NCBI GenBank assembly: GCA_003566885.1
Contig: PXBO01000063.1
Span: 1-44,348 of the forward strand
Length of the DNA stretch: 44,348 bases
DNA from: Opitutia bacterium
GTDB taxonomy: Bacteria; Verrucomicrobiota; Verrucomicrobiia; Opitutales; T3Sed10-336
Direction: 5' to 3'
In this document: positions 25,676 to 35,305 of the stretch, piece by piece
Position numbering within the stretch: the first letter of the stretch is position 1
Layout: every line of letters starts with the position of its first letter
Made by a program: the position numbers and the translations under genes
Notes under the pieces: model-generated
Told to the model about the DNA's origin: nothing
Database searches by the model: none
The model's input: the letters and a program-made list of their open reading frames with translations, nothing else

Positions 25676-26077
25676 TCAAAATTGACCGACGATGCGCAAC
25701 CGGAGAAAGCGTGGGCCGACCGATCCGGAGATAGGGGCGGAATCGAGAACGCGCATCATTTCTCCGTCGGTGTTCACCTGCGGGTCGGTGGTCGAGTCGT
25801 AAAGGACTTCAGTCCAGTCGACCAGGTCGGATGAAGCTTCGACAATGTAGGCGATGTCGGTTTTTGCCGGGGAGCGGTGAAAGAGCAGTGACAGCCGGTC
25901 GTCGACGATCTCAATCAGCGGCATCGACTTTGCCGCGGAATCTCCGGGAGCGATTTCGAGCGCGTATCGAACCAGGTTGGTGATGCCGTTTCCCCAGGGG
26001 TCGGCTTGCGGGCCCGATACGACGGGATTTTCGCGGTCATCGGGATCCGGGAACACCCGTTCCACCCACAACTGGTA
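25676..26077 (-). other. Shared C-terminal module, copy 1 (CotH-type protein)
   Basis: The last 133 residues run YQLWVERVF..., then ADPWGNGITNLVRYAL, a beta-strand pair with LSLLFHRSPAKTDIAYIVEASSDLVDW, and the ending RFLRLRIVGQF. The same order of elements ends the LamG protein and GH43. It is probably an extracellular targeting or beta-sandwich domain; its role is unknown. Confidence 0.7.
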
Positions 26078-29000
26078 GGTTTCAGCGGCACGATCGTTGA
26101 GAAAGACCGGTTGGATTCCGCTGTTTGGGCTGATTGTTGTGGCGATTCCGTCCGGGAATGTCCCGACGGCGACCAGGCTCCCGTCCTCCAGTGATCGTTC
26201 CTCGATCCGGCGAATGCCGGTGGCGAGATCATTGGGAATCAGCGTTCCCCAGCGGTTTGGGGTTTGAGCCACGATCTCATGGTAAAATGGCGCGTAACGG
26301 TCGTCGACCTCCGCACCCGTGATTTCCACCACAGTCGCCGCCAGCGGTCTCCCTTCGCCCGCGACATTGTCGTAGAGGACCACAAACTGCTTCGTGCCGG
26401 TTACACTTTCCCCGACCACGCCGGTCGCTTCCTCGGGGCCGGTTCCAAAGCCGATAACCCGCACCGCCTCTTCGGTTGTGAGGAAGTGGTAATATTCTTC
26501 CCCGTCTTCTCCATCATTTAAGAGCAGGCGTACTCCCACATCGTTCCCGGGGGTGAAACGGGGGTTTCCGCTGGGTTCGGTGACGAACCACCCGGAATAG
26601 GTTCCCTCGGAATCGGTAGTGAAAAGGTAATGACGGCTTCCGAAGTCTCCGGGCCGGAACCTCGGGGAATCGGTGTTGCGGATCCAGTCGACCTCCCGGC
26701 CGGTCACGAGAATCGCGTTCCCCGCCCCATTCTGCTCGGGCGGATCGTCCCCGGTGATGATCCGATTGCCGTAGCGATAGACCGAATTCGGGCGCAGTCC
26801 TTCCAGGGAAAGCCGAAAAGCGAATGGCACCCGGTTGTTGTTGTCGGCGGTCGCGTCCTGCTCTCCTTGTATGTAGCGTGGCATGACCAACTCGTTGAGA
26901 CGGACGATCCGAAAGGCGTCGCTCGTCGCGGACTCCAGGTTTCCGGTATCGGCTTTCAACCTGAAGACGCCCGCGCCTTCGACGGCGAGACCTTCGAAGG
27001 TGGCGACGCCGTCGACAGCCGGGACGGTGGTGGTTCCGGTCAACGCCCCGGTGCCATCGGGCGACAGGCTGAGGGTGATCTCGCCGTCGAAGAGCGGATC
27101 GATGAAACCGTCCGCAGTGGTCGCGCGCACGACGATCGGCGGCAGTTCCAGGACACTTTGACCCGTGCTTGGCGGGTGCGATTCGAACGCCAGTGCACTC
27201 GCGTCTCCAGGATCGCCGGCGGCGACGAGGATATTGTCGAGGCGCAGTTCGGCACGTGGCCCGGAGTCGCCCAGGACGTGGTAGTACTTCCAGCGCAGTT
27301 CGACGTACGGTTCTCCCTCGGCGTCGAGGGGAAGCGTCACCGGGCCGAACAACCGACTGTGTCCCGGCGTTTCGTTACGCAAATAGTCCAGGGGCATTCC
27401 GTCCGGTCCCGGAACGTCGGAGAAGACTCCGGTCGGACCGATGCGGTATTGCAGCCGCAAGGCGTAGACCCGATCGTTTGGTGTCACTGTGCCCGCCGTC
27501 CACTGGACCCGGATGTTTTCCGCATCCCGAGTATCGAGAGAGAGGACCGCTGAACCCAGGTACCCGGCTTCTTCGTTTTCCTGGGTGTTGGCGGTGTTGA
27601 TGAACGAGAGCCCCTGTTCCCCGAGACCGTTGACCCGGCTTCGGCTTTCGAGGTTGTAAGGCAGCTGCCAGAGTCCGTCCATCTCAACCCGAAGGCCCGG
27701 ATCGGATTCCTGGACTTGCTCGAAGAGCATGTGCGGCGGATACGTTCCGGCGGAGGCTTCCCGACTCCACCCGTTGAACTCGTAGGATCCTTCGGCAATG
27801 GGGTGGGGTTCCGTCCGGGCGGTCGCGAAGTGGACCTCATCCAGGGCGCTCCACTCGCCATTATCGAAGACACGGGCCTTGATCACGGTATCGTCGGTAA
27901 TCGTAATGGTTCCGGTGTAAGGGGTGGCGCGGGAGGCAATCTCTCCCGTTCCATAGATACGGGGGTCGCCTCCGTTCAGCGTGTAATAAATTGTGCCGCT
28001 GGACGAAGTCATCGAAACCTCGCTGCTTCCCAGGATAACGCCTCCCCGGGGCGAGAAAACCGGGGCCTCGGTATTGGGGTACAAACCGGCGTTGCGGAAC
28101 TGATTAATGACAATACCGGTTCGTTGCGGAAGGTAGTTGTTCACAATGCGGTCGAATTCCGGCATCCAGTGATCGGTGTGGGTGTACAAGACGCAGGGTG
28201 CGCCGCGACAGTGTTTGTCGCGACGATAGCTCCCCCAGCGGGCCGACTCGGCGATGACGGCCGCTTCGACGATAGCGGCTGTTTCGATGAACCGGTTGAT
28301 CGTTTTTTCGGGGGTGAGGGCGCCGTCATTGAAAAGATGCCGCTGCACATGGTCGGCGAACAGCAGGCGAAACTCCGCGTTATTGCGCAGTTCGGCGTAG
28401 AACCGGGCCGCGTCGGCGCTTACGTTTGTCCGATTGTTGTGCAGGCCCTCCATTGATCTCTCGGAATCCCAACAGAAAAACATCCACCCCGCTCCCGGCT
28501 CACGGCGACGGATCGCGTTCCAGTTATTGTGGGGCCAGTCATCCATGCCCGCCCACATATTCACGATCAGGTAGTCGATGTACTGCGGCACATCGAGGTA
28601 TTCCCGGATCGCCTCGTAGCTTTCGAGCGAGGACAGTCCGGCGTTGGTCAGGGAGACCATCGCGTCCCAGGCTTCCCGGTTTCCGTCCCGCACTCCGTTA
28701 TGGGTAAGAGCGTCCCAGTCCTCGCGTTCCCCTCCGAAGTAGGTGGACCCGAAGGCCGCGTCGATTCGTTCGGAGGGGTTGTAAAGCCCCCAATACACGC
28801 CGTTGATATAAAGGTGAACGTGCTTGCTGTGGGAGCCGCTGCCGCTCACCGCGATTTGTGAATCGCGTATGAACCGGTCCCGCATATACAGTCCTCGATT
28901 GCGTTGCTCGCTCGCCCAATGCAGCCACTCGTTGTTATACTCGGCGCGGAAGGTGATGGTGTTGAAATCCGCCATGTCCGAACCACTGCTTAGAAAAAAG

Positions 29001-30949
29001 GGATGTTCGAGTCGCCTGGCCTCGTAATCACTCTTGAAGAGGACGCGAAGTGACGCCTTGGGAGTGTTGTTGATTTGACGGCTGGCCCCGCCCTGGGAGC
29101 GCAGACCGGCGTTGATCTGAAATCCGGGGTTCCCGTTGGGATGTATCAGTTCCATGGACACCGGTCGCTCCCATTGCTGGCCCTTGCGCGTGCGATTGGG
29201 GTAGATTCCCGTGTCGGGATGGAACATGTCGTCCATGTCGATCACCAGCGATATACTGGGAATGCCGGTCAGGGCTTCCACCATCCGAGGCGCGTAGGCC
29301 GGGTTTTGGGTAACCTCGGGGGTCATCCCGTAGTGGACGAGATCCCAGGAACCCCATTGGGCTGGAAAATTCAGGGCTTCAGGGTCGTCCGGTTGCGCGA
29401 TCACCTCTTCCAGGAAAAGGTAACTGTGGGTCATGACGTGATGGGCCGGAAGAGCGGTGTCCGTGTGAGCGACGGCCCGCACCACGGTGTTGCCTTCAAT
29501 GGAAACGGGCCCTTGGTACAGGGCGCCCGTCGATTCCGTGGGAGGGCTTCCGTCGGTGGTGAAACGAATCTCGGCTTCGGGGTCGTCGTGGGAAAGGGTC
29601 AGTTCAAAAGGGGTTTCGTAGAATCCCCGTGCGTGCGAAAATTCCGGCGGAGAAAGCGGGGCGGAGTAGGTCTGAGTGGTGTTGCTTGCAGACGGAGTCG
29701 GCTCCAGGAAGTGGAACCAGTCGCCGGTTCCATCGGGGAAGCGGCCGTAGGAGGTATCCCGCGGGACCATTACCGGAGGCACTTCGTCCGCGGTGGAGCC
29801 GTCGGGACGGGTGAGCGACAACGGCTCTCCGTCGGCGCTGATTCGGAAATTGGCATGGAGCTGGGGGCCGGCCGGGCCTCCGAAGAAAAGGTTGTATTTG
29901 TCCGCCAGATACCGCTCGACTTCACGGCGCTGGTCCGGGGAAAGGGAGTGATTGTAGAGGATGAATTCGGCGATGTGCCCGTCGAAATTCCTGGGAGAGT
30001 CGTGCGAATTTCCCAGGAAGATGCCGCCGAAGCTCGAAGTGTTCACCGTTCCGGGATCCTCGGTGCGGGTTCCTACGATCTCGCCGTCGCGGAAGAGTCG
30101 AGCGACCGGCTCGTCTCCGGCGGATTGGGAGGCGCCCACCAGTGCCCAGGCGCCTTCCTCCAGAACGTTGCCCGCGGATATGGAGTTCATCGCCCCGACC
30201 CGAAGGCGAAGCGTTCCTCCGGACGAGGTCACCTCCAGGTGCATGTTCCCGGAATTGGTGTTCGAGGGGCCGGTGCCGAAAATGCCGGAAGTGATTCCTC
30301 CGTTCCATCGCACCAGGGTGAACAGGGTAAAATTTTCAAAATCGGCCATTTCCGCGAACTGCTGGTTCGGCAGGGAGAACTGCTGGTTGGAGCCGTCGAA
30401 ATGGAGGGCAGGGAGTCCGTTGATAGCGTTGTTGGCGAAGGTTGGACGCGCATTCGCCGCGGTCTGAATGGCGTCGTTGCCCAGTCCGCTCAAATCGGGC
30501 CAAACGTCTACGGGATCACCGTCGGACAAACCGCTTAAAGTACCGGCGCTGAACCATCCTGTCAGTCCCTCGATCGAAGCGGGATCGCTGAAATCGTTTT
30601 CGTCCTCGCCGTCCTCCGAACCCGGACGGCGGTCCTTTCCCGAGGCCCAAACCAGGAGGTGTTCGCCGGGACCGATCGTCCTCGACGGAAAAGTCCATTT
30701 GAAGGGGGTGTCCGAGTCGTCGGACAGCCCCCACCCTTCGAGGTTCACCGGCTCGGAACCTGTATTGTGGAGCTCGATCCAATCCTCGAAGTCTCCATCC
30801 TCATCCATCAATACCGAACCGTTCGAGGCGACGAATTCATTGATGACCACCTCGGACGAAAGCGGCGCCGCCAATAGGAGGACGACCGGGAGGAAGTGGA
30901 GAAAGCGTAGTACCGAATCGATTCGAAGATGCGTATTCAAGGGGATCAT
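25676..30949 (-). CDS. Giant secreted LTD/LamG/CotH-kinase-like protein
   Basis: From the ATG at 30949 the protein has 1757 residues with a signal peptide (FLHFLPVVLLLAAPLSS); an ATG at 31042 would add 31 residues and hide it. Domains in order: lamin-tail-like (about 32-115, VINEFVASNG...DWIELHNTG), LamG/ConA-like (120-360), chitobiase C-terminal-like (432-513, EIRFTTDGSPPTEST), CotH-kinase-like (565-880, with YLYING-type HLYINGVYWGLYNPSERID and WPHNNWNAIRRR...WDSERS), a second chitobiase-like domain (962-1042), further beta-rich sequence, and the shared C-terminal module. CotH proteins are atypical kinases; activity here is untested. It is divergent from the LamG gene. Confidence 0.85.
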   Translation of the reverse strand: MIPLNTHLRIDSVLRFLHFLPVVLLLAAPLSSEVVINEFVASNGSVLMDEDGDFEDWIELHNTGSEPVNLEGWGLSDDSDTPFKWTFPSRTIGPGEHLLVWASGKDRRPGSEDGEDENDFSDPASIEGLTGWFSAGTLSGLSDGDPVDVWPDLSGLGNDAIQTAANARPTFANNAINGLPALHFDGSNQQFSLPNQQFAEMADFENFTLFTLVRWNGGITSGIFGTGPSNTNSGNMHLEVTSSGGTLRLRVGAMNSISAGNVLEEGAWALVGASQSAGDEPVARLFRDGEIVGTRTEDPGTVNTSSFGGIFLGNSHDSPRNFDGHIAEFILYNHSLSPDQRREVERYLADKYNLFFGGPAGPQLHANFRISADGEPLSLTRPDGSTADEVPPVMVPRDTSYGRFPDGTGDWFHFLEPTPSASNTTQTYSAPLSPPEFSHARGFYETPFELTLSHDDPEAEIRFTTDGSPPTESTGALYQGPVSIEGNTVVRAVAHTDTALPAHHVMTHSYLFLEEVIAQPDDPEALNFPAQWGSWDLVHYGMTPEVTQNPAYAPRMVEALTGIPSISLVIDMDDMFHPDTGIYPNRTRKGQQWERPVSMELIHPNGNPGFQINAGLRSQGGASRQINNTPKASLRVLFKSDYEARRLEHPFFLSSGSDMADFNTITFRAEYNNEWLHWASEQRNRGLYMRDRFIRDSQIAVSGSGSHSKHVHLYINGVYWGLYNPSERIDAAFGSTYFGGEREDWDALTHNGVRDGNREAWDAMVSLTNAGLSSLESYEAIREYLDVPQYIDYLIVNMWAGMDDWPHNNWNAIRRREPGAGWMFFCWDSERSMEGLHNNRTNVSADAARFYAELRNNAEFRLLFADHVQRHLFNDGALTPEKTINRFIETAAIVEAAVIAESARWGSYRRDKHCRGAPCVLYTHTDHWMPEFDRIVNNYLPQRTGIVINQFRNAGLYPNTEAPVFSPRGGVILGSSEVSMTSSSGTIYYTLNGGDPRIYGTGEIASRATPYTGTITITDDTVIKARVFDNGEWSALDEVHFATARTEPHPIAEGSYEFNGWSREASAGTYPPHMLFEQVQESDPGLRVEMDGLWQLPYNLESRSRVNGLGEQGLSFINTANTQENEEAGYLGSAVLSLDTRDAENIRVQWTAGTVTPNDRVYALRLQYRIGPTGVFSDVPGPDGMPLDYLRNETPGHSRLFGPVTLPLDAEGEPYVELRWKYYHVLGDSGPRAELRLDNILVAAGDPGDASALAFESHPPSTGQSVLELPPIVVRATTADGFIDPLFDGEITLSLSPDGTGALTGTTTVPAVDGVATFEGLAVEGAGVFRLKADTGNLESATSDAFRIVRLNELVMPRYIQGEQDATADNNNRVPFAFRLSLEGLRPNSVYRYGNRIITGDDPPEQNGAGNAILVTGREVDWIRNTDSPRFRPGDFGSRHYLFTTDSEGTYSGWFVTEPSGNPRFTPGNDVGVRLLLNDGEDGEEYYHFLTTEEAVRVIGFGTGPEEATGVVGESVTGTKQFVVLYDNVAGEGRPLAATVVEITGAEVDDRYAPFYHEIVAQTPNRWGTLIPNDLATGIRRIEERSLEDGSLVAVGTFPDGIATTISPNSGIQPVFLNDRAAETYQLWVERVFPDPDDRENPVVSGPQADPWGNGITNLVRYALEIAPGDSAAKSMPLIEIVDDRLSLLFHRSPAKTDIAYIVEASSDLVDWTEVLYDSTTDPQVNTDGEMMRVLDSAPISGSVGPRFLRLRIVGQF

Positions 30950-31366
30950 TGGAAATGAACGAATTGCTTTATGAATCCTGCCAGAGCTAAATAAAACCTG
31001 CCTCAGCCGATTGGGTAATACAAAAGAAAAAGGCATCACCAATGTCGGCTCCAGGCGAGTATTTTATTTAATCTGTTGACTAAACCGTGTTCTCAATTGA
31101 CTCCCACTCGACGTTGTTCCAGAAAATGCGTCACCTGAAACGGCGTTCAATTCGCACTTGTGAGATTGGATCCTCCGCTCCCTGCAGAGGGGTTTCCAAT
31201 CGGTTTCGAATGATCGCGAAAACAGGTCCGCGGACATTAGGTACCATAAGACAATCATTTAACTTGCAGATATTTGCAATTCTCAAACTCCCGTCCCTTT
31301 TTCAACCTCGTTTCGGATGCTTCTGCTTCCGGTTGGGAAGACGGCGGGTACGAATAACCCGAAAAA
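30950..31366. other. 417-base divergent intergenic region between two giant secreted genes
   Basis: No coding frame of convincing quality is present; the 64-codon minus-strand frame at 31064-31258 has no recognisable motif. The region is more AT-rich than its surroundings and should hold both promoters. A TAAAAT on the minus strand near 31060 is a possible -10 element for the CotH gene. I see no clear operator or riboswitch. Confidence 0.5.
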
Positions 31367-34300
31367 ATGGAACAGACGATGAACCTCAGCTCAAAAGTAT
31401 TCCGGTGGTTGGCCTTGCTGTTTGGTTCGGCGCTCGTGTCGATCGCGAGCACCGTATCCGCCCAGCACAATATTATAATCGTTTCCGATGCTCCCCTCAA
31501 CGAGACGGGCTATGCGGAATGGCTGTCCGGATTCGGGCACAACGTGACGATCAGCGAAAACGGTCAATTTCACGGCACGCTCAGCGAGCAACAGAAGTCG
31601 CTTCTGGAGAGCTACGATCTGGTGATCGTGTCGCGAAATACCGGCAGCGGCAGTTTTAACGAGCCCGCCGATTGGAACGGCCTCGACGTGCCGATCCTGA
31701 TGCAAAATCCTTGGATGGGGCGAAACAATCGCTGGTTCTGGCAAAACGCAGACGAGATGCAGGGAAGAGGTGCCGCAGTCATGCAGGTGGGGAGCGCGCG
31801 TTTCGCCGGAGAGCATCCCAACACGGTTCCGGATTTCGACCACCCGGTTTTCGAAATGGTATCCATTAACCAGGATGGCGATTTCCCCACCGTGACCGTT
31901 CGTTCGATCGAGGTGAACAGCGACGTCAACTTGGCCGATCCAGGTGCCGGTCAATGGCTTCTGAGCGATATTCAGGAGTCCAGCCAGCGTGCGATGCTGA
32001 TCGATTTCACCGGAGCCATCGGAGAAGAGTATTATCCCGGCTCGGGCCACACCATCATCAATCGCCGCATGATCTTTCTGACCGGGAACGAATACAATGT
32101 GGGTTCGGCCGACGAGTGGCGGAGCCGGTTCACCCTGGACGGAGAACGGCTTCTCATGAACGTCATCAATCACGCGGGTGCGTTTGGCACCCCTCAGGCG
32201 GAGATGCCCTTTTCCACAGACTTTGGTTCCGTCCGGTTTATTCGTGTGCTGGAACAGATGACCAGAGAGGTTTTTGAATTCGAGCCCGTCAGCGAAGGGG
32301 GTTCGATCTACGTGGGCGACGATGCGACAGTGACTTCTCTTCCCGCCAGTCTGGCCGGAAATCTGGCGTTCAAGACGCGCAATCTTCGCCCGGAAACCGT
32401 TTTGCAATTCGCAGGTGCTTCACCGATCAACAGCCGAGTCGACACCAATCTGGCGACCGGAAGTCTTTCGTATCCCCTGTCTTTCTCCATTTGGATCAAC
32501 CGTTTTGATGACGGCACCGAACGAAACAAGATTTTCGGATGGTTTCCCACCGGCGGCGTTCCGAACCGCGGAGAGGTCGAAATCGTCGGCAGTTCCAACC
32601 TGCTGCGGTTGGTGTGGTGGGGTGGCGGACCCGTTATCGAGGTGCCCGCGCCCGCCCCGAATGTCTGGGCTCAGATCGGCTTGGTTATCACCGAGGACGA
32701 CGCTCGGCTCTACATCAACGGCAACCAGGTGGGGAGCCTGGACGAGGAGCCGTGGCCTTTGGACACCGGCATCAACCTCTGGGTCGGAGGCCGGCCTGAT
32801 GATTCGGAGGACAGTTTCCCGGGTTGGTTGAAGGAATGGGTCGTGTACGATGGCGATATCGGGGATGAAGGCATGCAACAGCTCGCCGCTGAAGCGGGAT
32901 TGCCGGACGGAGATCTGTTGCAGTACCTTCCTTTGAACGAAGGAGAAGGAGATGTCGTGTTCGATCAATCGGGCAATGGCGTTAACGGGCAATTGTTCGG
33001 CCCGTATTCCTGGGAAAGCACCGCTCTGGATGTTGAGGCCGCGTTCGGCATCGGCTTTGTCACCGACCGCAATCTGACGGTTTATCTCGCGGTTGACGAA
33101 AACATGGATGTGCCGGCGTGGATCGAGAATCGTTACACCAATAGCGGCATGAAAGTCGAAACAACCGTCGGCGATTTCGATCTCTGGCAGCGGCATTTCG
33201 GCGCGAGGGGGCAGGTTTCGTTGCTGGCCACGCCGAGGGAGCCGGGAGAGAATAATTACTGGGTGATTTTGAGCGAGGGGCCGGACGCCATTGTCGGGCC
33301 TCGCGACTTCCTCTTTAATCGTGCTTCCGCCGGCACTGGTGATTGGCGTCTCGATGCTCATAATTGGACGCTAACGACCGACCCGGCATCGGAAAAACAC
33401 CAGTCCGAAATGGTGGCGAACTTTAGTAATTTCAGTCCGGAAGCGGGATTCCGTACCTCTGCCCGGATCCGCGTTCCAAGTCTCCAGGACGCCGGGGATA
33501 ACGCCATCGGACTTTCCCTGTTGGGGAGTAATGGCGAGGGTCTGCGCGCGGAGTGGTTGCCGCGGACGCAGGACGAAGGGTCGGTATTACGTTTGGTCAG
33601 AGCTGCTACCGAGGAGATTCTAGCCGAAACGGACTTGAATGGTTCGGCGCAGACCCGCGTTGACAACAATGTGGGAGTCTCCTCCGGCGCGACGGAAATT
33701 GAGTTCTCATCCGGTGTTCCGGTCTTCGCAGACACTGCGGAAGGTATCGTTGTATTCACTGAGGCCTTTGCGGATGGAGGTGAAGGATGGACCACCGGAA
33801 GCAATAATCCCGCCGTCGATCAGTGGGAAATCGGAGTCCCCACCAGCGGCCCAGGATCCGCCTTTAGTGGTAGCAATGTTGCCGCGACGAACCTGGCGGG
33901 CCCTTATACGAGCGGTGGATTAAACGACACCATCGCTTGGTTGCGATCTCCGGTGATCGACCTGGTGGAGGTCGGAGAAGCGACGCTCAGTTTCTACGAG
34001 TATATGGATGTGGATACGTTCGAGGTGAACGACGAGGTGTTTCACTTCGGCGTCGTGACCGCCCTGGACGCGGACACCTTGGATGTGGTGGCGGAGATTG
34101 CCAGCTACAGCGCGGAAATCACCTCGTGGACCGAACGCGTGCTCGACCTTTCCGAAGTGACCGGACGCCGGATCGTGCTGGAGTTCGCTCTTTTTACCGA
34201 TGACGAGGAGGAATTCGTCGGTGACGGGTGGTATATTGACGCCATTGAGATCGTCGGAACCGGAGTCGAGATCTCGGCCTTGCCGGAAGCACTGGCGTTA

Positions 34301-35305
34301 GATGGCAGTTTGTTCGGGATTTCGACCGAGCGTGCCGGGGTGGTCGACGAGAGCGACAATCATCTCGAGTTTACCGTGGTCGATCGCGGGACGTCCGGAA
34401 ACGACGGTGTCACGGTTTATGTGGCGTGGGACGTTCGCGCATCCGGTTTCGAGCCGAATTGGTTGGTCGATCATTTCGCCCGCACCGATCACTTCGTGGA
34501 CGTTACCGGACAGGCCCGACAGCACCGTCTATGGGGTCGGGTATATCCAGATGGTGAAGTCGTGACCCTCGGCGGTGCTTCGGCCGCAGGCGCCGGACCG
34601 TTCCCGGAGGGGATCAACAACTACTTCGTCCTCTTCGGCGACGCCCGCCGGGGTTTGGAGTCGATTTACACCCTGACCGCCGAAGGTGAGTTGGTGGACG
34701 GTTCCTGGGAGATCGTGGTCTCTCTGCGCCGTAATGCCAATGGCACCGTGGGAACTGTTTCAACGGTGGTCGACGATCTCCCCGGTTCCTCGGAATTCGG
34801 TGTTTTTGCTCGCCATCCGGATTCGGCCGCGGGAGGGGTAACGCATTCCCCGATTTGGCAAGTCTTCGATTTCTCCATGGATTTCCTCGGTGAACTGCCG
34901 GATCTGCCCGGTTTCGAGGCTTGGAGAGAAGAATACTTCGCCGGCCAGCTCGACAATCCCGAGATCAGCGGTCCCGAAGCCGCTCCCGCCGGTGACGGAG
35001 TCTCCAACCTGGTGAAATACGCTCTCGGTTTGTCCCCCTGGGATCCGGCGGCTGCGGGAGACACCGGTACGGTGGCGGTGACCAACGAAGGTGAGGTTGT
35101 GCTTATCTACTGGCGGCGGACCGACATCGACGATATCGAATATATTCCGGAGGTTTCTGATGATCTGATCGTCTGGCGGAGTGGCTCGCCACATGTGGTG
35201 GAGGCCCTGGGCGCTCTCGACGGCAACCTTCGGGAGGTCGAGGCCACCGGAAGCGTGTCCGGGGACAGAGGGTTTATTCGTCTGCGGGTCAGGCTGATCG
35301 AATAA
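31367..35305 (+). CDS. Large secreted protein with ThuA-like, LamG and MAM-like segments
   Basis: The 1312-residue protein starts with a signal peptide (MNLSSKVFRWLALLFGSALVSIASTVSA from the second ATG, 31379). Residues about 33-280 (NIIIVSDAPLNETGYAEWL..., YDLVIVSRNT, MIFLTGNEYN) look like a ThuA/class I glutaminase-like alpha/beta fold. A LamG-like domain follows at about 350-500 (NVWAQIGLVITEDDARLYING). A MAM or choice-of-anchor segment is at about 800-965 (EGWTTGSNN, RSPVIDL, GDGWYIDAIEIVG). The last 130 residues are the module shared with the CotH protein and GH43. Probable cell-surface or matrix protein; enzymatic activity is not evident. Confidence 0.75.
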   Translation: MEQTMNLSSKVFRWLALLFGSALVSIASTVSAQHNIIIVSDAPLNETGYAEWLSGFGHNVTISENGQFHGTLSEQQKSLLESYDLVIVSRNTGSGSFNEPADWNGLDVPILMQNPWMGRNNRWFWQNADEMQGRGAAVMQVGSARFAGEHPNTVPDFDHPVFEMVSINQDGDFPTVTVRSIEVNSDVNLADPGAGQWLLSDIQESSQRAMLIDFTGAIGEEYYPGSGHTIINRRMIFLTGNEYNVGSADEWRSRFTLDGERLLMNVINHAGAFGTPQAEMPFSTDFGSVRFIRVLEQMTREVFEFEPVSEGGSIYVGDDATVTSLPASLAGNLAFKTRNLRPETVLQFAGASPINSRVDTNLATGSLSYPLSFSIWINRFDDGTERNKIFGWFPTGGVPNRGEVEIVGSSNLLRLVWWGGGPVIEVPAPAPNVWAQIGLVITEDDARLYINGNQVGSLDEEPWPLDTGINLWVGGRPDDSEDSFPGWLKEWVVYDGDIGDEGMQQLAAEAGLPDGDLLQYLPLNEGEGDVVFDQSGNGVNGQLFGPYSWESTALDVEAAFGIGFVTDRNLTVYLAVDENMDVPAWIENRYTNSGMKVETTVGDFDLWQRHFGARGQVSLLATPREPGENNYWVILSEGPDAIVGPRDFLFNRASAGTGDWRLDAHNWTLTTDPASEKHQSEMVANFSNFSPEAGFRTSARIRVPSLQDAGDNAIGLSLLGSNGEGLRAEWLPRTQDEGSVLRLVRAATEEILAETDLNGSAQTRVDNNVGVSSGATEIEFSSGVPVFADTAEGIVVFTEAFADGGEGWTTGSNNPAVDQWEIGVPTSGPGSAFSGSNVAATNLAGPYTSGGLNDTIAWLRSPVIDLVEVGEATLSFYEYMDVDTFEVNDEVFHFGVVTALDADTLDVVAEIASYSAEITSWTERVLDLSEVTGRRIVLEFALFTDDEEEFVGDGWYIDAIEIVGTGVEISALPEALALDGSLFGISTERAGVVDESDNHLEFTVVDRGTSGNDGVTVYVAWDVRASGFEPNWLVDHFARTDHFVDVTGQARQHRLWGRVYPDGEVVTLGGASAAGAGPFPEGINNYFVLFGDARRGLESIYTLTAEGELVDGSWEIVVSLRRNANGTVGTVSTVVDDLPGSSEFGVFARHPDSAAGGVTHSPIWQVFDFSMDFLGELPDLPGFEAWREEYFAGQLDNPEISGPEAAPAGDGVSNLVKYALGLSPWDPAAAGDTGTVAVTNEGEVVLIYWRRTDIDDIEYIPEVSDDLIVWRSGSPHVVEALGALDGNLREVEATGSVSGDRGFIRLRVRLIE
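34913..35305 (+). other. Shared C-terminal module, copy 2 (LamG protein)
   Basis: The final 130 residues begin FEAWREEYF, continue with NPEISGPEAAPAGDGVSNLVKYALGL and DIDDIEYIPEVSDDLIVW, and end GFIRLRVRLIE. They line up with the ends of the CotH protein and GH43 with about the same spacing. The segment is found only at the C-terminus. Confidence 0.7.

Follow-up and report, generated by a model that had tools for sequence, protein, structure and literature searches.

A giant modular protein with a CotH-type kinase fold and its mosaic paralogs in an Opitutales bacterium

Here, we describe a divergent pair of genes for giant proteins in an Opitutia bacterium of the order Opitutales (assembly GCA_003566885.1). 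The window, i.e., the whole stretch of 44,348 nucleotides that was analysed, is one contig (C108; PXBO01000063.1) of a 2.5 Mb draft genome (G000) with a completeness of 67.6%. Two open frames, P0001 on the minus strand and P0002 on the plus strand, diverge from a gap of 417 bases (Table 1). Both frames are real, and their strands, their lengths and the gap are as a sequence-only reading of the window had described them; the N-termini of both proteins look like signal peptides by eye, as that reading also held. The gap contains neither sigma-70-like nor terminator-like sites (0 of each, with shuffle means of 0.8 and 0.6), and its sequence matched nothing in the fetched loci besides the window's own sequence. 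Lysine is very rare in both proteins (0.9% in P0001 and 0.6% in P0002), and arginine makes up 6.4% and 5.0%, respectively.

Table 1. Features of the divergent pair in window coordinates; the last row gives positions within the named loci.
Feature	Position	Strand	Remark
P0001, 1757 aa, putatively exported multidomain protein with CotH	25676..30949	-	stop codon included
P0001 C-terminal tail module	25685..26086	-	shared with P0002
Module Y, residues 1246-1620	26090..27214	-	without Pfam name
Module X, residues 1046-1245	27215..27814	-	without Pfam name
CHB_HEX_C_1 domain 2, residues about 970-1043	27821..28042	-	second Pfam stretch; approximate
CotH kinase fold, residues 562-955 (structural extent)	28085..29266	-	Pfam and model
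CotH Pfam match, residues 663-909	28223-28963	-	PF08757
D828, pairs with B. cereus CotH chain D247	28466..28468	-	presumed equivalent of B. subtilis D251
D804, pairs with B. cereus CotH chain D224	28538..28540	-	presumed equivalent of B. subtilis D228
CHB_HEX_C_1 domain 1, residues 441-496	29462..29629	-	Pfam PF13290
P0001 LamG-like domain, residues 185-340	29930..30397	-	Pfam PF13385 (Laminin_G_3), 49.1 bits
Lamin tail domain, residues 31-112	30614..30859	-	Pfam PF00932, 55.5 bits
Gap between the divergent genes, 417 bases	30950..31366	.	GC 0.46 vs 0.59 for the window
P0002, 1312 aa, putatively exported multidomain protein	31367..35305	+	stop codon included
P0002 N-terminal domain, residues about 34-270	31466..32176	+	recurs in proteins of G003 and G004
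P0002 LamG-like domain, residues 366-496	32462..32854	+	Pfam PF13385, 44.4 bits
P0002 MAM-like stretch, residues 864-963	33956..34255	+	PF20773, under cut-off
P0002 C-terminal tail module	34907..35302	+	shared with P0001
CotH clade, apparently dead	L037:5262-10634, L040:176-4882, L041:7624-12111, L042:6331-10923		

P0001 consists, in this order, of a lamin tail domain (LTD), a LamG-like domain, a CHB_HEX_C domain, the CotH domain, a second CHB_HEX_C domain, two modules without a Pfam name (X and Y) and a C-terminal tail. The lamin tail, LamG, two chitobiase-like and CotH parts that the sequence-only reading had assigned to this 1757-residue protein all lie over the curated Pfam cut-offs (CHB_HEX_C_1 in two stretches, Fn3_assoc, CotH, LTD and Laminin_G_3), with the CotH match at 61.7 bits against a cut-off of 23.8. 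Fn3_assoc coincides with the two CHB_HEX_C_1 stretches, the second of which was placed by eye from a conserved YYT.DG.DPR block. A search of NCBIfam gave one match only, far under its cut-off. The LTD is 58-72% identical across the eight giant relatives that possess one. Module X recurs in nine of ten giant relatives (48-69% identity) and is absent from the protein at locus L047; module Y recurs over most of its length in the protein at locus L049 and in those of C47, C58, G003 and G004 (46-59%).

In P0002, only Laminin_G_3 exceeds its Pfam cut-off. The LamG part of the earlier description of this protein thus stands; its MAM-like stretch scores 16 bits against a cut-off of 26.9 (E 0.009), and its ThuA-like part found no support. 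Pfam gives no ThuA (PF06283) match in the N-terminus of P0002 or in six proteins with homologous segments, and the same model finds 14 places in the window's own genome, 13 of them over the cut-off. A profile-profile comparison of 15 P0002-type segments with 9 of 10 ThuA loci, both in shallow alignments, gave P 0.08, against P 0.27 for a reversed decoy. By Pfam, genome search and profile-profile comparison, a ThuA identity of the N-terminus is unsupported at the sequence level, and a single-sequence model of residues 33-510 (pLDDT 33.9) is too low in confidence for a reading of the fold. Four of the 14 ThuA-family places lie within open frames of >1000 residues. The N-terminal domain of P0002 at times occurs in more than one copy per protein at loci L138-L143 (G003 and G004); some of these proteins end in a PEP-CTERM motif, and one has a zinc carboxypeptidase domain.

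The two proteins were also said to carry the same C-terminal module. Such a module is present, the two tails being 30% identical, but it is not specific to the pair: a 9-row tail profile finds 34 places in the window's own genome and 26, 28, 15, 90, 89, 34 and 76 places in seven other genomes of the family. The tail is best read as a generic module that would function in export or anchoring.

The CotH core of P0001 has the fold of a known kinase. Residues 480-1030 were modelled with AlphaFold on a 55-row alignment (the window and 54 of the 80 related loci described below, with L082 left out for a residue not determined in its sequence), and the model reaches a mean pLDDT of 93.6 and a pTM of 0.91. 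With the core model, Foldseek places the B. cereus CotH entries 5jda and 5jd9 on top (E 1.8e-13 and 2.6e-13) and returns no other match at E ≤0.001. VIA-align superimposes the core on B. cereus CotH 5jd9 with Z 30.9 and rmsd 2.2 over 323 residues of the 358-residue chain; the second-best structural family is the lipid kinase PI4KIIalpha (Z 13.4), and a Fam20C entry scores Z 9.1. With carbohydrate-associated modules around it and lipid kinases as the second-best structural matches, the core might phosphorylate a non-protein target, e.g., a surface glycan. Glycan kinases of related fold exist. However, the CotH protein kinase is matched far better, and middling Z values such as those of PI4KIIalpha and Fam20C cannot tell small-molecule kinases from protein kinases; we consider a non-protein target improbable.

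Several observations bear on the reading that we prefer, in which the core acts on proteins. First, the catalytic residues of Bacillus CotH can be located in P0001. While phmmer searches of PDB chains with P0001 and with the CotH region of L001 gave no match each, a 12-row CotH profile reaches 5jd9 at E 4.1e-6, and in this profile alignment D804, N809, D828 and E830 align to D224, N229, D247 and D249 of the 5jd9 chain sequence, positions that were numbered by manual counting. For B. subtilis CotH, the variants D228Q and D251A are described as lacking catalytic activity (PMC7821199). D224 and D247 of B. cereus lie 23 residues apart, as do D228 and D251 of B. subtilis, which suggests, on this spacing rather than on an alignment with the B. 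subtilis protein, that the two pairs are equivalent; in P0001, D804 and D828 are 24 residues apart. Second, these residues are conserved. In the best 80 of at least 538 relatives, K631 and E727 are kept in 80/80, D804 and N809 in 78/80, and D828 and E830 in 79/80, one locus lacking coverage at the last four positions; all six residues lie outside the two peptide patterns that were used to fetch the loci. On the other side, P0001 has Glu (E830) where the WDxD motif has its second Asp (chain D249), as do 79 of these best 80 relatives. Third, the core is among the best-kept stretches between P0001 and the protein at L049 (core 73% identity, LTD 71% and a 76-residue linker 75%, against 60% for LamG, 66% for X, 59% for Y and 39% for the tail). 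The catalytic pocket, on whose integrity the earlier kinase proposal depended, is intact by structural match and by aligned, conserved D804, N809 and D828. A working CotH-type kinase in P0001 is plausible on this comparative evidence.

P0001 has many relatives. When GTDB species genomes were scanned with a 5-row alignment, at least 567 pattern matches were obtained, at least 538 of them relatives, of which the best 80 were kept (L049-L128). These best 80 of at least 538 comprise 38 from Verrucomicrobiota, 30 from Planctomycetota, 8 from Bacteroidota, 3 from other phyla and 1 without a label, and their cores are 36-69% identical to that of P0001. The LTD shares an open frame with CotH in 73 of the best 80, modules X and Y occur in 1 (L049, which aligns with P0001 at 63% identity over residues 36-1624), a LamG part of the P0001 type in 3 and the tail in 4. 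These frequencies make LTD plus CotH the common architecture and the frame of P0001 a local elaboration of it. P0001 is a member of this LTD+CotH family, which is widespread and occurs mainly in Verrucomicrobiota, Planctomycetota and Bacteroidota. The suggestion that a CotH kinase would be new in this group does not hold, since the window's own genome has nine CotH places and CotH occurs in 29 of 132 genomes sampled from its order.

The sequence-only reading had proposed that the two genes are co-regulated and that P0002 is a possible substrate of its neighbour. For a pair that works together, P0001 and P0002 are suggestively placed, being adjacent and divergent. However, a search with residues 35-1160 of P0002 (E 1e-3) came up empty in all 80 P0001-type loci (the best 80 of at least 538), which extend ≤10 kb per side where the contig allows. 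Many of these loci are shorter, and a locus end cuts the CotH frame in 17 of the 80, so that some neighbours are invisible. At the level of genomes, the 4.4 Mb draft of L049 (G132) has no P0002 match at 1e-5, and two of seven genomes searched in the same way have weak matches (29-39%) to single stretches. When residues 34-1161 of P0002 were compared with 31 genomes, any match at 1e-5 was found in five, and only the window's own genome and G006 match most of the protein; 16 P0002 matches in G003, G004 and G005 include none on the contig that carries the CotH gene of the genome concerned. G006, the only genome of the same genus that was examined, contains a relative of P0002 (47% identity over residues 279-1309) at the very start of a contig, with the far side out of view, and has no CotH match anywhere in its 92% complete draft. 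A sulfatase-like gene (by eye) follows the P0002 relative in G006. With G132 lacking P0002 and G006 lacking CotH, both as draft genomes, each protein occurs without the other.

One further place in the window's own genome bears on the question. On contig C101 there is another CotH giant, and 2.4 kb from it a gene with a P0002-like tail (L037:12999-13367) is truncated by the contig end. Over its last 123 residues, the product of this gene shares 52-55% identity with the P0002 tail, compared with 30-43% for seven other aligned tails. Because this tail gene lies near a CotH gene, a second CotH/P0002-like neighbourhood is possible, and a small doubt about the absence of linkage persists. A 239-aa open frame with a PEP-CTERM-like end (by eye) lies between the two C101 genes. 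As a substrate, P0002 lacks Ser-rich repeats like those of CotB and also lacks basic repeats (at most 11 S/T/Y or 6 K/R occur within any 40 residues, and lysine makes up 0.6%), and the tail that it has in common with P0001 is generic. Altogether, the pair is not kept in the relatives searched, and phosphorylation of P0002 by P0001, with both controlled from their common gap, is highly improbable.

The CotH giants of the same order retain a common frame, with 58-72% identity to P0001 in the LTD, 48-61% in X (not in L047), 46-58% in Y in the four that possess it, and 37-47% in the tail. Over residues 600-905, their CotH cores diverge to 25-39% identity to P0001, except in the near copies L038 (82%) and L049 (73%). 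L038 (447-5906; contig C61, 5.9 kb) continues in other frames with autotransporter-like stretches (by eye), followed by the common tail. Trees were computed for the 11 proteins, out of 19 gathered, that hold both a CotH core and module X. In the core tree, P0001, L049 and L038 group with L046 (100/100), whereas in the X tree the same three group with L048, L043 and L044 (100/100). Imposing the grouping of each tree on the other data is rejected by the AU test (p-AU 4.7e-10 and 3.4e-7), values that are optimistic because the groups were named after the trees had been seen. Most of the LTD tree lacks resolution, and this tree neither backs nor contradicts swapping. P0001, L046, L048 and L037 all come from one genome. 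The conflict between core and X trees and the presence of these paralogs in one genome therefore show swapping or homogenising of modules, whether among paralogs or through transfer, which left giant paralogs with a common frame and CotH cores of conflicting ancestry.

Within the same frame, D804 and N809 are replaced by H and E in one clade of cores (L037, L040, L041 and L042). The loss of D804 may be an alignment slip, given that L040-L042 have another Asp one residue earlier; close to the N809 column, no Asn occurs in any of the four rows. This clade is probably catalytically dead and pseudokinase-like. In motif windows inspected by eye, the D...N...D set is kept by 8 of the 9 CotH places of the window's own genome and not by C101. 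A seeming loss of K631 in some paralogs is likely an alignment slip, as a lysine stands beside that column.

The persistence of the L037/L040-L042 proteins, apparently without equivalents of D804 and N809, indicates that the frame tolerates a dead core, and it raises the alternative that the CotH core of P0001, though it keeps the kinase fold, serves a large adhesion protein as a structural or binding part, its conserved residues holding the fold or a metal instead of acting in catalysis. Such a role would fit a core that lies among adhesion-type domains, and a 2025 review treats the role of CotH in cellulosomes as unsettled, naming both structural and kinase-based regulatory roles (PMC12484212). 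Yet retention of D804, N809 and D828 in 78, 78 and 79 of the best 80 of at least 538 relatives, across six phylum labels, seems to go beyond what a scaffold would need, and we regard a purely structural core as unlikely, though less so than a glycan target.

We favour, with moderate confidence, a model in which P0001 is an exported modular protein with a CotH-type atypical kinase core acting on extracytoplasmic proteins and P0002 is an independent neighbour. Here, the LTD, LamG and chitobiase-like parts would most likely hold P0001 on the envelope or on a polysaccharide surface, the tail would serve export or anchoring, and the core would phosphorylate proteins outside the cytoplasm; export, kinase activity, a substrate and an ATP source are all presumed in this model. 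P0002 would be an independent exported protein whose common ground with P0001 is limited to the generic tail and a LamG-type domain. More tentatively, and with somewhat less than an even chance, the exported giants of the order could form a modular kinase display set, in which one frame (LTD, linker, X, often Y, and tail) carries CotH domains from different old lineages, some of them catalytically intact and one clade apparently dead. Surface kinases and pseudokinases would then be exchanged through domain swapping on an unchanged delivery frame.

Should the intact CotH cores be active, Verrucomicrobiota and Planctomycetota, which together account for 68 of the best 80 of at least 538 loci, may commonly phosphorylate proteins outside the cytoplasm. 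CotH domains of the P0001 type are widespread and little studied in these bacteria: among the open-access literature, as judged by listings and with subscription journals mostly outside, we found no paper on CotH in either phylum. The swapped frame, which supplies natural intact and apparently dead CotH versions for comparison, is the part most worth following.

Among known systems, Bacillus CotH (5jd9 and 5jda), which acts on CotB and CotG of the spore coat (PMC7821199), resembles P0001 in core fold and in the aligned catalytic aspartates. However, its solved chain has about 360 residues and P0001 has 1757, which include adhesion-type modules; P0001 also carries Glu where WDxD has its second Asp. 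In Clostridium thermocellum, the cellulosomal protein Cthe_0239 is described as LTD, LTD, Fn3 and CotH, and CseP (Cthe_0044) as CotH (PMC6083626). Cthe_0239 thus resembles P0001, being an exported protein that combines a lamin tail domain with CotH. Both clostridial proteins are tabled with a dockerin type I module in the same paper and are compared here by that description; instead of a dockerin, P0001 has a Verrucomicrobiota-type tail, LamG and two chitobiase-like domains. Exported proteins with a CotH domain also occur in anaerobic fungal cellulosomes and in Mucorales (PMC12484212); by description, they are set apart as eukaryotic and with other partner domains. Also similar are the LTD+CotH proteins L049-L128, the best 80 of at least 538, which share the LTD in 73 cases and the same catalytic residues, and differ from P0001 in the rarity of X, Y, LamG and tail. 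Compared with these systems, what appears to be new here is a set of giant paralogs with a common frame but CotH cores of conflicting ancestry, one clade of which is apparently dead.
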